A program made the translations under genes and the position numbers. Of a stretch of DNA of 64,000 bases, positions 12,617 to 60,825 are shown piece by piece. Position 1 is the stretch's first letter; each line of letters opens with the position of its first letter. Source of the DNA: Phycisphaerae bacterium RAS1. GTDB taxonomy: Bacteria; Planctomycetota; Phycisphaerae; UBA1845; Fen-1342. The stretch covers positions 1,178,001 to 1,242,000 of the forward strand of contig SMLU01000001.1 in assembly GCA_007859745.1 (NCBI GenBank), in the 5' to 3' direction. A model generated the notes under the pieces. That model did no database searches, had not been told where the DNA came from, and saw only the letters and a program-made list of their open reading frames with translations.

Positions 12617-12626
12617 GAGTTCAAAC

Positions 12627-12647
12627 TTCAGAGTTCAGAGTTCAGAG
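12627..12647. repeat. Heptamer array H1, three exact TTCAGAG units
   Basis: TTCAGAG is repeated three times without change at 12627, 12634 and 12641. It lies between yicC and tatD and faces an inverted array (H2, 12755-12775). The 107 bp between them hold no gene. Confidence 0.9.
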
Positions 12648-12754
12648 TGCGATCAGAACGCGAAGCCGTTCAAAGTAGGTCAGGTCTGATGGCGGCCGCG
12701 CTCGCTTGCGCTTCGCGTTCCGACCGCCGGCCTTTCGCATCGACTCTGAATCTT

Positions 12755-12775
12755 GAACTCTGAACTCTGAACTTA
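12755..12775. repeat. Heptamer array H2, inverted GAACTCT units
   Basis: GAACTCT at 12755 and 12762 and GAACTTA at 12769 are the reverse complement of the H1 type. The array ends exactly at the yicC stop codon (12773-12775). H1 to H2 spans 149 bp. Confidence 0.85.
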
Positions 12776-21626: not shown

Positions 21627-22079
21627 ATGCCTGGCACCTACTCTCAAATCCTGCTGCACGTCGTATTCAGCACGAAACACCGCCAGCCGTCGATCACGTC
21701 CGAAGTTGCGGAACGGCTCTATCCGTACATCGGCGGCATCGTTCGCGCTGAGCGTGGCGTGCTCTACGACATCGGGGGCGTCGAGGACCACGTCCACATG
21801 TACTTGCGCTGGCGGCCGGATGGATCGTTTTCGGATTTGATGCGCACGGTCAAGGCGCGGTCGTCGAAGTGGGTGCATGACACGTTCCCCGCGCTGGGCG
21901 CGTTCGCGTGGCAGGAGGGGTACTCGGTCTTCTCGGTCAGCAAGTCGCAGGAGGAGGCGGTGAAGAAGTACATCGCGGGGCAGGCCGAGCATCACAGGAA
22001 GGAGGACTTCAAGTCGGAGTTGTTGAAGTTGCTCCGCGCGCACGGCGTCGAGTTTGACGAGCGATACGTGTTCGATTGA
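21627..22079 (+). CDS. tnpA: IS200/IS605-like Y1 transposase (REP-associated type likely)
   Basis: A 150-residue single-domain HUH transposase. The metal-binding pair H55-V-H57 lies in GGVEDHVHMYLRW, and the catalytic tyrosine Y115 is in VKKYIAGQAEHH, the typical YIxxQxEHH block. These enzymes cut and join single-stranded DNA at hairpin-marked ends. No tnpB accompanies it. Instead the gene is flanked on both sides by family-C palindromes (21007, 21158, 21434 and 22143) and small GC hairpins. That is the arrangement of REP-associated tyrosine transposases, in which the enzyme is linked to spread of the repeats. The gene looks intact, and a remnant of a second copy lies at 19981. Confidence 0.88.
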   Translation: MPGTYSQILLHVVFSTKHRQPSITSEVAERLYPYIGGIVRAERGVLYDIGGVEDHVHMYLRWRPDGSFSDLMRTVKARSSKWVHDTFPALGAFAWQEGYSVFSVSKSQEEAVKKYIAGQAEHHRKEDFKSELLKLLRAHGVEFDERYVFD

Positions 22080-44937: not shown

Positions 44938-45518
44938 GGGGAGCTCCTTGACGTGGCGGCCATGCCCGACGCGGGCTTGCGAAGCGCATCGAACGTCAGC
45001 ACCTGGCCCGGATAATGCAACCGCAGCGCTTCTGCCGCGGCCCGCGTCTCAAAGGCGGCCAGATTCGAGGCCATCGGCGTGTGCAACTTCTCGCTGCGGA
45101 CATAGACCGCCTCATCCGCCGACAGCCATTTGCCGGTCTTGAAATCGTGGACGTACATCGCTCCAGGCGGCCGGCCGGAATTCTCCTTCAGGTAATCCAG
45201 CAGGCAGCCGACGTCGTCGAACGCGATCTTCCACACGCCGTCGTCGGCGCTGATGCAGGCCGCGGCGGCGAAGGGCTCGTCGCTGACGATCATCTTGCAG
45301 TAGTCGCACTCCGTTTGGCCGTAGGCGATGGCCGGTGGGGAGAGGTCGTCGCCGCGGCCGCAGCCGCACGCCGCGACGAGCGCGAGCAGCGATGCGGTAA
45401 GTAGCGAGTAGCGAGTAGCGAGTAGCGAGTTGAAGAGCGTCGCGCCTGCGCACGGCAGGCCAAGGTGCAGCGCCGCGTCTTTGCTCTCAGGCATCCGCCA
45501 TTGACTACTCCGCGTCAT
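44934..45518 (-). CDS. nosL: NosL copper-chaperone lipoprotein
   Basis: NosL delivers Cu(I) to nitrous-oxide reductase. The mature protein has QTECDYCKMIVSDEPFAAAA with the CxxCxM-like copper site, VGCLLDYLKE, VHDFKTGKWLSADEAVYV and TPMASNLAAFETRAAAEALR, all family-typical. The lipobox is LVAACG. The ATG at 45518 overlaps the nosY stop (ATGA). The long 60-residue stretch before the lipobox is unusual: it includes SLLATRYSLLTA, which is the translation of four GTAGCGA heptamers (45401-45428) on the opposite strand. The repeat thus forms part of the signal peptide. The total is 194 residues. Confidence 0.9.
   Translation of the reverse strand: MTRSSQWRMPESKDAALHLGLPCAGATLFNSLLATRYSLLTASLLALVAACGCGRGDDLSPPAIAYGQTECDYCKMIVSDEPFAAAACISADDGVWKIAFDDVGCLLDYLKENSGRPPGAMYVHDFKTGKWLSADEAVYVRSEKLHTPMASNLAAFETRAAAEALRLHYPGQVLTFDALRKPASGMAATSRSSP
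45401..45428. repeat. Heptamer array H3, four exact GTAGCGA units, inside nosL
   Basis: GTAGCGA at 45401, 45408, 45415 and 45422, followed by GTTGAAG. It encodes part of the NosL signal peptide on the minus strand. The same array with the same flank (CAAGTAGCGA... GTTGAAGA) lies at 46348 in nosY. Confidence 0.92.
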
Positions 45519-46501
45519 GGTCGCACCCCGCGTCGAAAGACCACGCCCGCCGCCGCCAGCGGCAGGATGATCCACGCCGCCAGCACGCTGAGAAGCAACG
45601 CGGGCAGGGCGCTCCCGAATGTCTGCGAGGCGTACAGCCCGGCCGGGCCGAGCAGGTCCAGCGAGCGGTGCATTCCACTGACCGCGAAGATCTTGAACAC
45701 TTGCAGCGGGTTGACCAAGGCGGCGGCCAGCAGCTCGCCGGCCGTCATGCGCAGCGTCGCCGCGCCGCCCATCAGTCCCAGGTCGCCCAGAAATACAAAT
45801 CCGAGCCAGGCAAAAATCGAGATGCCCAGCGCCAATGACGAGCGGCGCGAGAGCGTCGAGATCAGAAACCCGACGCTCAGCATGGCCCAGCCCAGCAGGA
45901 CGCTCAGCGCGAAGATCGAGGCGTACTGCGCCGCATTGGCCGATGCGCCGCGGACCGCGAGCACGCCGCCGGTGACGCCGAATCCCAGCGCCAGCGCCGC
46001 CATGAGCGCCGCCGCCAGGCCGATGAATTTGCCGAGCAGCACTTCGCCGCGGCGAACCGGCTGCGAGAGCAGCGTTTCGAGCGTGCCGCGCTCGCGTTCG
46101 CCGGCGATGGCGGACGCTCCCAGCGTCAACGCCATCAGTGGCACGATCAGCAGCACCAGATTGACCAGGCTCGCCGCGGTCCGCCCGAAGCCGGCCAGGC
46201 CGAAGCGCCCGGTGCCGGTCAGCGCGACCGACGCCAGCCCCAGCGACAGGGCCGCGAAGCAGACGGCATAAAGAAGAAACCAGCGGTTGCGCAGGGCGTC
46301 GCGGATTTCCTTGCCGGCGAAGATCGCGACGACGCGGAGAGTATCAAGTAGCGAGTAGCGAGTAGCGAGTAGCGAGTTGAAGACGCCGCGACGTGCTTCG
46401 AGGGCGGCCAGATCGCGTCTGCTCTCTTTGACCGCGCTCGCTGCCGGTGGCGCCATCTGCAACTCGCTACTCGCTACTTTGAACTCTGAACTCTTACTCA
46501 T
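45515..46501 (-). CDS. nosY: NosY-type ABC permease with repeat-derived N-terminus
   Basis: The permease partner of NosF in the NosDFY complex that helps mature the copper centres of NosZ. The family-typical part begins at IFAGKEIRDALRNRWFLLYA. Five to six membrane helices follow, with ASAIAGERERGTLETLLSQPV as the coupling-helix motif and MAALALGFGVTGGVL. The ATG at 46501 overlaps the nosF stop (ATGAGTAA). The first 60 or so residues (MSKSSEFKVASSELQ..., GVFNSLLATRYSLLDTL) are not family sequence: they are the translation of two inverted heptamer arrays and the DNA between them (46348-46494). No start codon exists between the repeat and the conserved part, so the repeat must be translated. 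Confidence 0.88.
   Translation of the reverse strand: MSKSSEFKVASSELQMAPPAASAVKESRRDLAALEARRGVFNSLLATRYSLLDTLRVVAIFAGKEIRDALRNRWFLLYAVCFAALSLGLASVALTGTGRFGLAGFGRTAASLVNLVLLIVPLMALTLGASAIAGERERGTLETLLSQPVRRGEVLLGKFIGLAAALMAALALGFGVTGGVLAVRGASANAAQYASIFALSVLLGWAMLSVGFLISTLSRRSSLALGISIFAWLGFVFLGDLGLMGGAATLRMTAGELLAAALVNPLQVFKIFAVSGMHRSLDLLGPAGLYASQTFGSALPALLLSVLAAWIILPLAAAGVVFRRGVRP
46348..46375. repeat. Heptamer array H4, four exact GTAGCGA units, inside nosY
   Basis: GTAGCGA at 46348, 46355, 46362 and 46369, followed by GTTGAAGAC. With H5 it forms an inverted pair of 147 bp. Confidence 0.92.
46464..46494. repeat. Heptamer array H5, mixed TCGCTAC and GAACTCT units
   Basis: TCGCTAC at 46464 and 46471, then TTT, then GAACTCT at 46481 and 46488. 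It joins both heptamer types (the GTAGCGA and TTCAGAG kinds) in one array and ends at the stop codon of the nosDF gene. Confidence 0.88.
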
Positions 46502-49500
46502 GGTTTTCCTCGCTTTCCAGCTCAAAATCCTCGACCGCAATCCCCGCCGCCTGGAGCGCCGCCAGCGGTCCGGCCTTGCGGCCGGAGGGCACGCGCACCA
46601 GCACCGCCGTGTGATTCAGCGACGCGTCGAAGCCCGCGCGGGTCAGCGCCCCGCAAGCCTGTTCGCGCAGGGACTCCGTGAGCGGAATGCGGACAAACGT
46701 GACGGCGGCGGCAAGCTGGTTCAGCAGCGCCGGCGGGCCGTCCTGCACGACCCGGCCGCGCTCCAGCATGACCAGCCGGTCCGCCAGAAAGGACACTTCC
46801 TCGGCCCGATGCGTGGAATAAACGACCGTCTTGCCCGACTCCTTCAGGCCGCGGAGCAGCTCGAGGAACTGCCGCCGAGCGCGGGCGTCGAGATTCGAGG
46901 TCGGTTCGTCCAGAAGCAGCAGCGGCGGGTCGGCGAGCAGGGCCACGGCCAGCGCCAGCCGCTGCTTCATGCCGCCGGAGAGCTCGCCGACGCGCTTGGC
47001 GGCGTGCTCGATCAGGCCGACGCGCGCGAGCGCGGCGTGGACGGAGGCGGTCGATGCGTCGCAGCCCTTCAGCCGCGCGAAGAAGCGGAGCGTGTCGGTC
47101 GTTGTCAGCTCGTCGTAGAACGCCAGCTCTTGCGAAACGTAGCCCACCAGCCGGCGGGCGGCCTTTCCATCGCGGCGGACGTCAAAATTGCCGATGCGGA
47201 CGCAGCCGCGGAAGCTGTGAAGGCCGAGCAGGCACTTGATGATCGTCGTCTTGCCGGCGCCATTGGTACCCCAGAGCGCGACCGCGGCGCCGGGCTGAAC
47301 ATCGAGCGAAAGCTGATCGACGGCGGTGTTGCGGCCGAAGCGCTTTGTGAGTTTCTCAATGCGGAGAATCGGCGGCGCGGACGATACGGGGGCGGACGGG
47401 TCGAATCGCGGCGCAGGAGACGCCTGCACGTGTTTGGTTAATTCGTTGTCCATGGTGGCCACGGCTGCACGGCCAAGCGGTCGCTCGGACCGTTGCTCGC
47501 ACACTTGGGTTTCTGCAAGGCGAGCGCTTGACCGTGCCACCCGACCGCGCCCTGCGCCCTGCGCCCCGCGCCCCCACCGGCCGGTCCACGGTCGAAGCAC
47601 CAACGCGACCACCGCGAGCAAACCGGCCGACACCGTCGGCATCGGCCAGGCCGCCGCCGCCCGCGCCGGCTGCACGTGCAGCGCGATCGGCCGCGTGAGC
47701 GGGGCCGTATCGGTGATCTTCGGCGCCGGCTGCATGATCGGAAACGCCTTCGACGCCAGCTCGATCGCCTGTTGCGCCGGGCTGTAGATGAACAAACGAA
47801 ACTTTGGCTCACGGTCCATCAGATTTTCGAAGAGACCCGTCGCGTGATAGGGCAGATCGCCCACGCCGTCGCCGGCGGCGTCGAAGCCGGCGTAGTCGCT
47901 CCAGTAGTTGCCGACGCCGTCGACCGTGAACTTGTTGTTTTTCAGCTCACCCGTGCCCCACAGCGCCACCTGCTCGATGTTCTCGCGGAATTCATTCTCG
48001 CTGAAGTGATTCCGCTGCACCGCCGGCAGGAACGCCAGGGCGATGTCGTTGTACGCGAACACGTTGCGGCGGATGTGATGCTCGACGTCGATCCGCGACG
48101 GGCTGTTGTCCATGTACATGCCGACGCGGTTGGCGAGCAGCGCGTTTTCCTCTGCGATCAGCCCGTCCATGTCCTTCAGCCCGATGCCGTAGCCGCTCGG
48201 ACCGCGGTTGTGGTCCAGCAGGTTGCGGCGCATCACGACGTTTCCGCTGTACATCAGAAACACGCCCACCGAGTTGTCCACCAGCCGGTTTTCCTCGAGC
48301 ACGCCGTCGTGGGCGTACATGAAATGCATGCCGTAGCGGCTGTCCTGCACGGTGTTGCGGCGAAGCTGCGCCCCGCGCGAGTACCAGATCACGACGTCAC
48401 GGACGGCCTCGACCTTGTTGTCTTCGACGATGCAGTTGTTGCTGTTCCACAGGCGAATGCCGTCGCCGCGGCGCGGCAGGTAGAGGTTCTTGCCGTGAAC
48501 GCTGTTGTTGCGAACCGTCGCGTCGGAGGCGGTGTTGAGCAGGATGCCGACCAGCACGTCGGTCAGCGTGTTGTGCTCGACCGTCGCTCGCGGCGCCAGC
48601 ACCGCCACGCCGGCGTTCTGCTCATCGAGGCTCTCGCCGGTGTTGCGGATGCGGAAGCCGCGCAGCGTCACGTCCGGCGCGGTGATGCGCACCACGTCGC
48701 CCTCGCCGCCGGCGTCGAGCGTCACGTCGCCGTCGGCAATCAGCCGCACAGGCTTGTCGATCAGGACCGTGCCGCGGTACGTGCCGGCGGGGACGCGCAC
48801 GTCGCCTCCTTCGACCGCGGCGCGAATGAGCTGCGCGACGGGCGACACCGCCGTCACGGCGGATTCCACGCGCGGCTTGTCGGAATGCTCCTGCGCCGAC
48901 GCGGTCCCCGGCGCCAGCAACGCGACGGCAACCAGCGCGACGGTGACCATCGGCGACATCGCGTTTCGCGCGGCGCGCTGCGCATCCACCAGCGGCTTGT
49001 AAGCCCGGCGGTGAAAGTAGAGCGCCGTGATCACGACCAGCGCCGCAATCGTCGCCAGCCACAGCCCGGTCGATGGGTCAGCCACGGTCTTGAATTGCCC
49101 GATCGTTCCGACGCCCAGCACCGGCGGCACGAACGGCTTGATCGAGCTGGAGAGCGCCGCGTGCGGGTCGAGGTTGGTTCCGAATGTCGCCAGCCAGTAT
49201 TGCAGATCGACCAGGAACCCAACCGGAAAGAGCACCGCCGGAAGCGCAATCACGCCCGCCCACCGGCTGTGAATGAAGATTCCCGCGACCAGCAGGGCCG
49301 CGAGCACGACGATCAGCATGGCGGAGTTGTTCCGCTCAAGCTGGGCCGCGTCGTTGAGCGGCCGCATGCCGATGTAGTGGTTCAGGCCGTCGATCTCGTG
49401 CACGTCGCCTTCAAGCCGGTTCAGATACGCCTGAACGTGCAGGCCCTTGGGATACTGCGGCGCGATGAGCTTCATCTTCCAGTAAGGGAAGAAGAAGGAG

Positions 49501-49622
49501 ACGCCCACCAGCGCGCCCGCGATGACGAGCAGCACGCTCGGCAACACGTAGCGCATCCGGTTGGAGCGCAGCTCCTCGGTCGGCACCCGCGGCCCCAGGA
49601 TGTTTTGCATGGTCGCGGTCAT
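46494..49622 (-). CDS. nosDF: Membrane domain/NosD/NosF fusion for NosZ maturation
   Basis: A single 1042-residue frame with three parts. Residues 1-215 form a membrane domain with about five helices and the stretch LIAPQYPKGLHVQAYLNRLE, like the separate membrane protein found in clade II nos clusters. Residues 219-241 are a signal-like helix; 250-640 are NosD, a parallel beta-helix with DGIRLWNSNNCIVEDN and SGNVVMRRNLLDHNRGPSGYG; a helix lies at 659-680. Residues 724-1042 are the ABC ATPase NosF: Walker A GTNGAGKTTI, signature LSGGMKQRLALA, Walker B LLLLDEPTSNLD, H-switch YSTHRAEE. The junction 681-723 is arginine-rich and encoded by a palindromic repeat. An ATG at 47453 could restart NosF, but no stop or Shine-Dalgarno precedes it. 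Confidence 0.88.
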   Translation of the reverse strand: MTATMQNILGPRVPTEELRSNRMRYVLPSVLLVIAGALVGVSFFFPYWKMKLIAPQYPKGLHVQAYLNRLEGDVHEIDGLNHYIGMRPLNDAAQLERNNSAMLIVVLAALLVAGIFIHSRWAGVIALPAVLFPVGFLVDLQYWLATFGTNLDPHAALSSSIKPFVPPVLGVGTIGQFKTVADPSTGLWLATIAALVVITALYFHRRAYKPLVDAQRAARNAMSPMVTVALVAVALLAPGTASAQEHSDKPRVESAVTAVSPVAQLIRAAVEGGDVRVPAGTYRGTVLIDKPVRLIADGDVTLDAGGEGDVVRITAPDVTLRGFRIRNTGESLDEQNAGVAVLAPRATVEHNTLTDVLVGILLNTASDATVRNNSVHGKNLYLPRRGDGIRLWNSNNCIVEDNKVEAVRDVVIWYSRGAQLRRNTVQDSRYGMHFMYAHDGVLEENRLVDNSVGVFLMYSGNVVMRRNLLDHNRGPSGYGIGLKDMDGLIAEENALLANRVGMYMDNSPSRIDVEHHIRRNVFAYNDIALAFLPAVQRNHFSENEFRENIEQVALWGTGELKNNKFTVDGVGNYWSDYAGFDAAGDGVGDLPYHATGLFENLMDREPKFRLFIYSPAQQAIELASKAFPIMQPAPKITDTAPLTRPIALHVQPARAAAAWPMPTVSAGLLAVVALVLRPWTGRWGRGAQGAGRGRVARSSARLAETQVCEQRSERPLGRAAVATMDNELTKHVQASPAPRFDPSAPVSSAPPILRIEKLTKRFGRNTAVDQLSLDVQPGAAVALWGTNGAGKTTIIKCLLGLHSFRGCVRIGNFDVRRDGKAARRLVGYVSQELAFYDELTTTDTLRFFARLKGCDASTASVHAALARVGLIEHAAKRVGELSGGMKQRLALAVALLADPPLLLLDEPTSNLDARARRQFLELLRGLKESGKTVVYSTHRAEEVSFLADRLVMLERGRVVQDGPPALLNQLAAAVTFVRIPLTESLREQACGALTRAGFDASLNHTAVLVRVPSGRKAGPLAALQAAGIAVEDFELESEENHE
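47454..47545. repeat. Semi-palindromic repeat encoding the NosD-NosF linker
   Basis: GTGGCCACGGCTGCACGGCC plus AAGCGG on one side and CGAGCGCTTGACCGTGCCAC on the other can pair imperfectly. The centre is TTGCTCGCACACTTGGGTTT. The block reads through in frame and links two domains that are usually separate genes. Confidence 0.55.
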
Positions 49623-60690: not shown

Positions 60691-60825
60691 GTCAGAAGTT
60701 AGACCTCGGAGTTCAGCAGTCAACAGTCAGCGCACGGGTCTTTCGTAGTTCGATACTCGACATTCGACGTTCGACATTCAGCCTCTTGCCTTCAACTCGC
60801 TCCTCGCTACTGTGAACTCGCTACT
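60691..60825. repeat. Heptamer array H6, in-phase degenerate units over 135 bp
   Basis: From GTCAGAA (60691) units of exactly seven bases follow: GTTAGAC, CTCGGAG, TTCAGCA, GTCAACA, GTCAGCG, then a short drifted stretch, then TTCGATA (60749), CTCGACA, TTCGACG, TTCGACA, TTCAGCC, TCTTGCC, TTCAACT, CGCTCCT, CGCTACT, GTGAACT and CGCTACT (60819). The argG stop codon lies inside. This is the longest array of the window. Confidence 0.85.

Follow-up and report, generated by a model that had tools for sequence, protein, structure and literature searches.

The heptamer repeat at the nosDF/nosY junction of strain RAS1 is best explained, with a probability that we put at about 0.75, as one copy of a dispersed hairpin with heptamer arms that would have spread as a mobile element, and the peptide that it adds to NosY as a passenger. 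This peptide is most likely tolerated and no functional part of the protein, since copies inside genes would be kept only where the frame is open and the site is tolerant.

The repeat at the nosDF/nosY junction

In the window (the whole 64-kb stretch of DNA that was analysed), nosY, encoding an ABC2_membrane_2 permease (Pfam E = 5.1e-32), occupies 45515–46501 of the minus strand and contains the element in frame. It is preceded on the same strand by the nosD-nosF fusion (46494–49622), the stop codon of which lies within the outermost heptamer of the element. NosD and NosF seem to be joined there in a single reading frame of 1,042 aa. As described in the first-pass annotation, four exact tandem GTAGCGA units are present on the plus strand at 46348–46375 and face a mixed array composed of two TCGCTAC units (46464–46477) and two TGAACTC units (46480–46493). 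The 147 bp that the annotation regarded as enclosed are in fact the whole span of the repeat (46348–46494), while the loop between the arms measures 84 bp (46378–46461).

Read in the sense of nosY, on the minus strand, the 5' arm (46462–46499, GAGTAAGAGTTCAGAGTTCAAAGTAGCGAGTAGCGAGT) is built of mixed heptamer types, provides the nosDF stop codon TAA and reads SKSSEFKVASSEL given a start at the first ATG; the 84-nt loop (46378–46461) codes MAPPAASAVKESRRDLAALEARRGV and includes a second in-frame ATG; and the 3' arm (46346–46377) consists of the four TCGCTAC/GTAGCGA units, read as FNSLLATRYSLLD. The loop could be either an ancestral N-terminal tail or the interior of the element. As single-stranded RNA this copy folds with −91.1 kcal/mol (z = −7.7), and Rfam gave no match for the nosDFY-L region. 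GTAGCGA occurs 16 times in the window versus 4.95 times expected from shuffled sequences, none of 100 shuffles reaching 16. A chance origin of the repeat is ruled out, because four tandem GTAGCGA units have an expectation of 1.6e-12 in 64 kb and the 17-mer AGTAGCGAGTAGCGAGT has 95 exact occurrences genome-wide versus none for its reversed control.

There are further arrays in the window. A second GTAGCGA array, a single arm at 45399–45430 on the minus strand, reads NSLLATRYSLL in NosL and is matched weakly by the covariance model R1 described below (E = 1.5e-4). It falls within the signal-peptide region of that protein (NSLLATRYSLLTASLLALVAAC), and thus the heptamer repeat may be part of the lipoprotein signal there. 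At 12617–12773 there is a further facing pair, made of GAGTTCA-type units and mainly intergenic, and a degenerate cluster of mixed heptamers (GAGTTCA, CAGTCAA, TTCGACA and ACTCGCT) is found at 60705–60824.

Extent of the repeat in NosY and the start codon

The full N-terminal reading of NosY is MSKSSEFKVASSELQ (5' arm), MAPPAASAVKESRRDLAALEARRGV (loop), FNSLLATRYSLLD (3' arm) and TLRVVAIFAGKEIRDALRNRW, and the family core begins at about residue 64 (KEIRDALRNRW). The first in-frame ATG (46501–46499) overlaps the nosDF stop TAA (46496–46494) in the outermost unit, and the second (46456–46454) lies within the loop, so that the tail ahead of the family core has 63 or 48 residues, depending on the start codon. 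The earlier statement that no start codon lies between the repeat and the core holds downstream of the array at 46348, where no in-frame ATG, GTG or TTG is found between the 3' arm and the core, and fails upstream of the 3' arm, where the two ATGs are located. Judged from the reading frame, the 3' arm, i.e. 12–13 residues of NosY, must be translated, because no start codon follows it ahead of the core; and as both ATGs lie upstream of it, it is the only part for which this is obligatory. The claim that repeat DNA is translated as part of the NosY N-terminus is thereby supported, while the estimate of about 60 repeat-derived residues was too high: beyond the 12–13 of the 3' arm, some 15 of the 5' arm are translated only with a start at the first ATG, and the loop contributes about 25 more.

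The comparison with NosY of relatives that the first-pass annotation had proposed bears this out. The element peptide is absent from NosY of all six relatives compared (genomes G008, G020, G013, G001, G019 and G004), the five aligned proteins having 48–75% identity over the aligned length, and where the start is readable (G008, G020, G013, G019 and G004), 24–37 residues precede the KEIRD-type motif, versus a tail of 48 or 63 here. In an AlphaFold model from a shallow alignment, residues 1–26 and 38–48 of NosY have pLDDT below 50, which is consistent with a flexible tail.

The odds are only a little short of even that translation of nosY begins at the inner ATG (46456), in which case the 3' arm would be the only arm translated and the 5' arm would separate nosDF from nosY as an untranslated spacer; this is a variant of the dispersed-element reading, and the two are compatible. 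This start was chosen by codon scoring, it gives a 48-residue tail that without the 3' arm has about 35 residues and so falls inside the 24–37 of the relatives, and it would let the 5' arm behave as in ordinary intergenic copies; moreover, REPs close to an N-terminus are frequently extragenic, given a possible translation start further downstream (PMC3733652). However, the 5' arm of nosY, too, lies in the open frame in which every in-gene copy is read, and the overlap of the ATG at 46501 with the nosDF stop has its like in the start codons of some relatives. Initiation at a non-standard codon (GTC or ATC) past the 3' arm, which would leave the element wholly untranslated, is highly improbable. 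Intergenic copies do have the next start about 16 nt downstream, which here falls near GTC GTC GCG ATC, but GTC is not known as a start codon, the resulting tail of about 8 residues would be shorter than that of any relative, and both arms belong to a single open frame that an ATG precedes.

Architecture and copy number of the dispersed element

The element, about 80–150 bp long, consists of two facing heptamer arrays that flank a loop, each unit being GAGT followed by a triplet that varies but is mostly AGC or TCA. In the arms GAGT is followed by AGC 115 times, by TCA 19 times and by TAA 10 times, then by GTC, GCA and others. All 27 pairs detected in an exact-word search have the same order of GAGTAGC arm, loop and ACTCGCTAC arm; their loops (17–84 nt) are mutually unrelated, the inner arm ends have GAGTTGAAGA in common, and the consensus stem has 15 pairs. 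GAGT-N3-GAGT was counted 128 times in 864 kb versus 4–24 times at most other spacings, with 88 at N10 (the double period), and not once in 397 kb from two relatives. Heptamer arrays as a class give a period-7 peak in the genome of RAS1 and none in the samples of G008 and G013.

The covariance model R1 was trained on 21 copies with the nosY copy left out, and in the genome search it recovered the nosY copy as a complete element (46348–46491, E = 3.3e-19) among about 36 places; the arm-array sites were taken from the genome and read, and 36 well-supported places were obtained after merging of the strands. Accordingly, two points of the first-pass annotation have to be revised. The two heptamer types are not kept apart elsewhere, since most elements of the genome combine several GAGTNNN units, among them GAGTAGC, GAGTTCA and GAGTTAA, and the joining of the two types at nosY is not unique, the repeat there being one copy of the dispersed element.

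Several other ideas about the arrays were followed up. GAGTTCA had been considered as a family of its own; because its exact 17-mer is rare (one copy in the genome), it is regarded as a minor unit within the GAGTNNN family. The loops were tried as hidden palindromes and gave no strong signal (mean z = −0.82; −1.2 for the nosY loop alone), and what signal there is probably comes largely from TGAAGA/TCTTCA adjoining the arms. In respect of gene conversion or snap-back within copies, the resemblance between the arms of one copy does not exceed what position predicts (p = 0.39). A scan of public genomes with a 24-nt GAGTAGC repeat gave matches in many phyla; many of these may be single long microsatellites, and so the scan is not counted as evidence for the hairpin element.

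Copies between genes and in frame within genes

According to a purpose-written gene caller based on codon usage, 24 of the 36 places are intergenic (P = 6e-13, the genome being 14% intergenic), 11 lie in frame within genes and one is that of nosY, which was called intergenic solely because the caller prefers the inner ATG. Typical intergenic copies begin a few nucleotides from a stop codon and end 13–26 nt (about 16 nt) before the next start. They are found in unidirectional and convergent gaps only, with no copy between divergent genes although 22% of the gaps are divergent (P = 0.002 by gap count).

Three of the in-gene copies belong to UvrA and the rest to CarB, MetH, a ThiC, a xanthine-dehydrogenase-like protein, a pyruvate:ferredoxin oxidoreductase, a HemN-like protein and two further proteins, and a lone 3' arm is also translated in urocanate hydratase, as another is in NosL. 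All in-gene pairs are read in one frame, SSEFRVASSELK...NSLLATRYSEL, with the common peptide SSE(F/L)RVASSEL(K/N)...(N)SLLATRYSEL, and NosY uses the same frame. The GAGTTCAGAGTAGCGAGTAGCGAG arm is free of stops in only one of its three frames (GAG TTC AGA GTA GCG AGT AGC GAG), and the ACTCGCTAC unit, from its sequence, is open in all frames; such an open-frame constraint would act as a simple filter on the in-gene insertions that survive. When CarB, UvrA, MetH, the xanthine-dehydrogenase-like protein and ThiC are aligned with their PDB relatives, both flanks align and the repeat peptide is unmatched or poorly matched, and the arm in urocanate hydratase is likewise an unmatched insert. The insert of CarB sits in a clade-variable loop that lacks the repeat in relatives (57–72% identity), and the genome itself yielded no further full CarB. 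It has low pLDDT in a model from a shallow alignment; the low values of the NosY and CarB inserts are consistent with a tolerated insert, a weak point in view of the shallowness of both alignments.

Other heptamers were seen in the same proteins. The UvrA of 1,799 aa (L008/L009, G000:C1:228-233.7 kb) carries, besides its three GAGTAGC hairpins, inserts of GAAGTCA, GAAGTCC and GGGAACA, the GAAGTCA units being in frame. Urocanate hydratase, MetH, ThiC and the xanthine-dehydrogenase-like protein (L061, L066, L077 and L084) have GGGAACA units in frame, read as REQGTGNREQ. CarB (L016/L284) has an additional insert, SRDREGVVHPSRDREGVV, which matches other places in the genome and is missing in relatives.

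Related genomes and the age of insertions

Related hairpins are distributed patchily: of 61 genomes from the order or family 25 have them, as do 23 of 199 from the phylum at E <= 1e-6. The nearest genomes compared belong to other genera. UvrA of G006 and of G018 each has one element, matching two of the three UvrA sites here; because each of these two sites is shared between RAS1 and one of the two genomes, some insertions would be older than the genera, and the element therefore need not be mobile today. Apart from UvrA, a single intergenic site was the only place where the position of copies was seen to be conserved. An intergenic hairpin site (L315 and L318) seems to be present also in G001 and G013, ahead of the same gene start but with arms that have diverged, and would be of use for gauging constraint. 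G019 has an element in a PheS-like protein (named by eye from its sequence). In G020, 43 matches to the element (both strands counted) lie elsewhere and none in its NosY, and among the sampled genomes the nosY insertion is private to the RAS1 lineage.

Possible origin of the element and alternative explanations

We infer that the element spreads as a small non-autonomous hairpin pair, like REP dimers or Rickettsia palindromic elements. The gap from a stop codon to the next ribosome-binding region would be the best-tolerated site, and copies inside genes would survive only in an open frame at a tolerant, flexible site; relatives show a variable loop or no such peptide at the in-gene sites. In nosY, the 5' arm would give the nosDF stop and possibly the first 15 residues. 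As for a helper, none of the 20 genome matches to the Y1 (RAYT-like, PF01797) transposase lies within 1.5 kb of an arm array or of a match to R1. The window itself has a strong Y1_Tnp domain at 21639–21983 (386-aa open frame, E = 3.2e-25), with no heptamer array nearby.

Two other explanations of the element as a whole have to be weighed. It is possible, yet we think it rather unlikely, that the intergenic copies are selected RNA elements, such as hairpins at 3' ends or insulators of translation in all frames, and the in-gene copies a spill-over from them. The copies do fill the interval between the stop codon and a point about 16 nt ahead of the following start, they shun divergent gaps, GAGTAGC arrays give stops in all frames for ribosomes from either side, the nosY copy folds strongly (−91 kcal/mol, z = −7.7), and a role in translational regulation was proposed by MacGregor for the TAACTGA repeats (PMC4679880). 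Selection against harmful insertions, however, predicts the same distribution, about one third of the copies are inside genes, and both the patchy occurrence in the order and phylum and the scarcity of conserved positions speak against such a role. Replication slippage in place, with pairs and spread as by-products and no mobility at all, is less probable still. Heptamers are common among long bacterial simple repeats, for which slippage was proposed according to work cited in PMC4679880, and the low unit numbers (2–4) and unrelated loops would agree with it; but slippage does not produce facing pairs, nor would it lead one to expect the same arm order in 27 of 27 pairs, the shared GAGTTGAAGA at the inner ends, or mixed GAGTNNN units recurring at dozens of unrelated loci.

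Within the preferred reading of a mobile hairpin, we tentatively raise a further idea, against which the odds still lie: heptamer-armed hairpins might be a separate class of bacterial mobile elements, in which the periodic GAGT+NNN arm is recognised by an enzyme and the GAAGTCA and GGGAACA families move alike. If so, these sister families would add peptides to UvrA, CarB and MetH across the phylum. The genome offers in-frame hairpins in about a dozen conserved genes and shows intergenic repeats turning into protein sequence, with the caution that N-terminal or loop peptides of repeat origin should not be taken as functional. UvrA with three inserts, partly common to other genera, is a system for timing how long inserts persist.

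Comparison with known repeats

In-frame hairpin repeats within genes have been described in Rickettsia as RPEs (Ogata 2000, as reported in PMC10969869 and PMC2229807). Like these, the present elements are hairpins of about 100–150 bp that occur between genes and in frame in unrelated conserved genes (here 11 in-gene copies and nosY) and are tolerated by the proteins. They differ in organism and sequence, and while RPEs have a conserved interior and a family peptide, the loops here are unrelated and only the arm peptides are common. Classic MITEs are likewise set apart by the unrelated loops, and by arms that are no more alike than position predicts.

With REPs and REPINs, the latter being facing REP pairs with a variable spacer (PMC3116915), the element shares the inverted pair, variable spacer and hairpin (27 of 27 pairs) and the location beside 3' gene ends in unidirectional and convergent gaps, with none in divergent ones. 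GTAG/CGTC REPs also avoid divergent gaps, their ends supply TAG stop codons, and several REP dimers lie in uvrA of O. terrae (Verrucomicrobia) and Thioalkalivibrio (PMC3733652); termini that give TAG stops and intragenic copies, several of them in uvrA, are found here as well. However, a REP is a 20–40 bp palindrome with the GTAG tag at one end, whereas the arm here is a direct heptamer array with GTAG every 7 nt, and four single arms gave no palindrome of their own clearly better than shuffles (z from −0.05 to −1.0). In addition, no RAYT gene is flanked by the heptamer repeat within 1.5 kb among the 20 PF01797 matches.

Dispersed intergenic tandem heptamers are known as the TAACTGA repeats of Beggiatoaceae, cyanobacteria and Bacteroidetes, in which one strand has stops in every frame while the other is open, and as the STRRs of cyanobacteria; both are now and then read as the terminus of a protein, for instance at the beginning of an ABC permease (PMC4679880). 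The unit here is GAGTNNN, mainly GAGTAGC, and not TAACTGA, and while those repeats form direct arrays immediately ahead of start codons, with a single indirect repeat, ours form facing pairs with a loop and insert in the middle of proteins. The GGGAATC-type heptamers of Xanthomonas and Nostoc are also dispersed, mainly intergenic and few in divergent gaps (PMC4692102), but they are G-rich and quadruplex-forming, and hairpin pairs are not generally described for them, with some inverted arrangements noted. In the openly licensed literature, we found no description of facing heptamer arrays as hairpin arms, in frame in many conserved genes. The present element connects the intergenic heptamer repeats of other phyla, which are poorly explained, with hairpins of the REP kind. 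In-frame intragenic hairpin repeats as such are already known from RPEs and REPs; here, the arms are heptamers and not palindromes.
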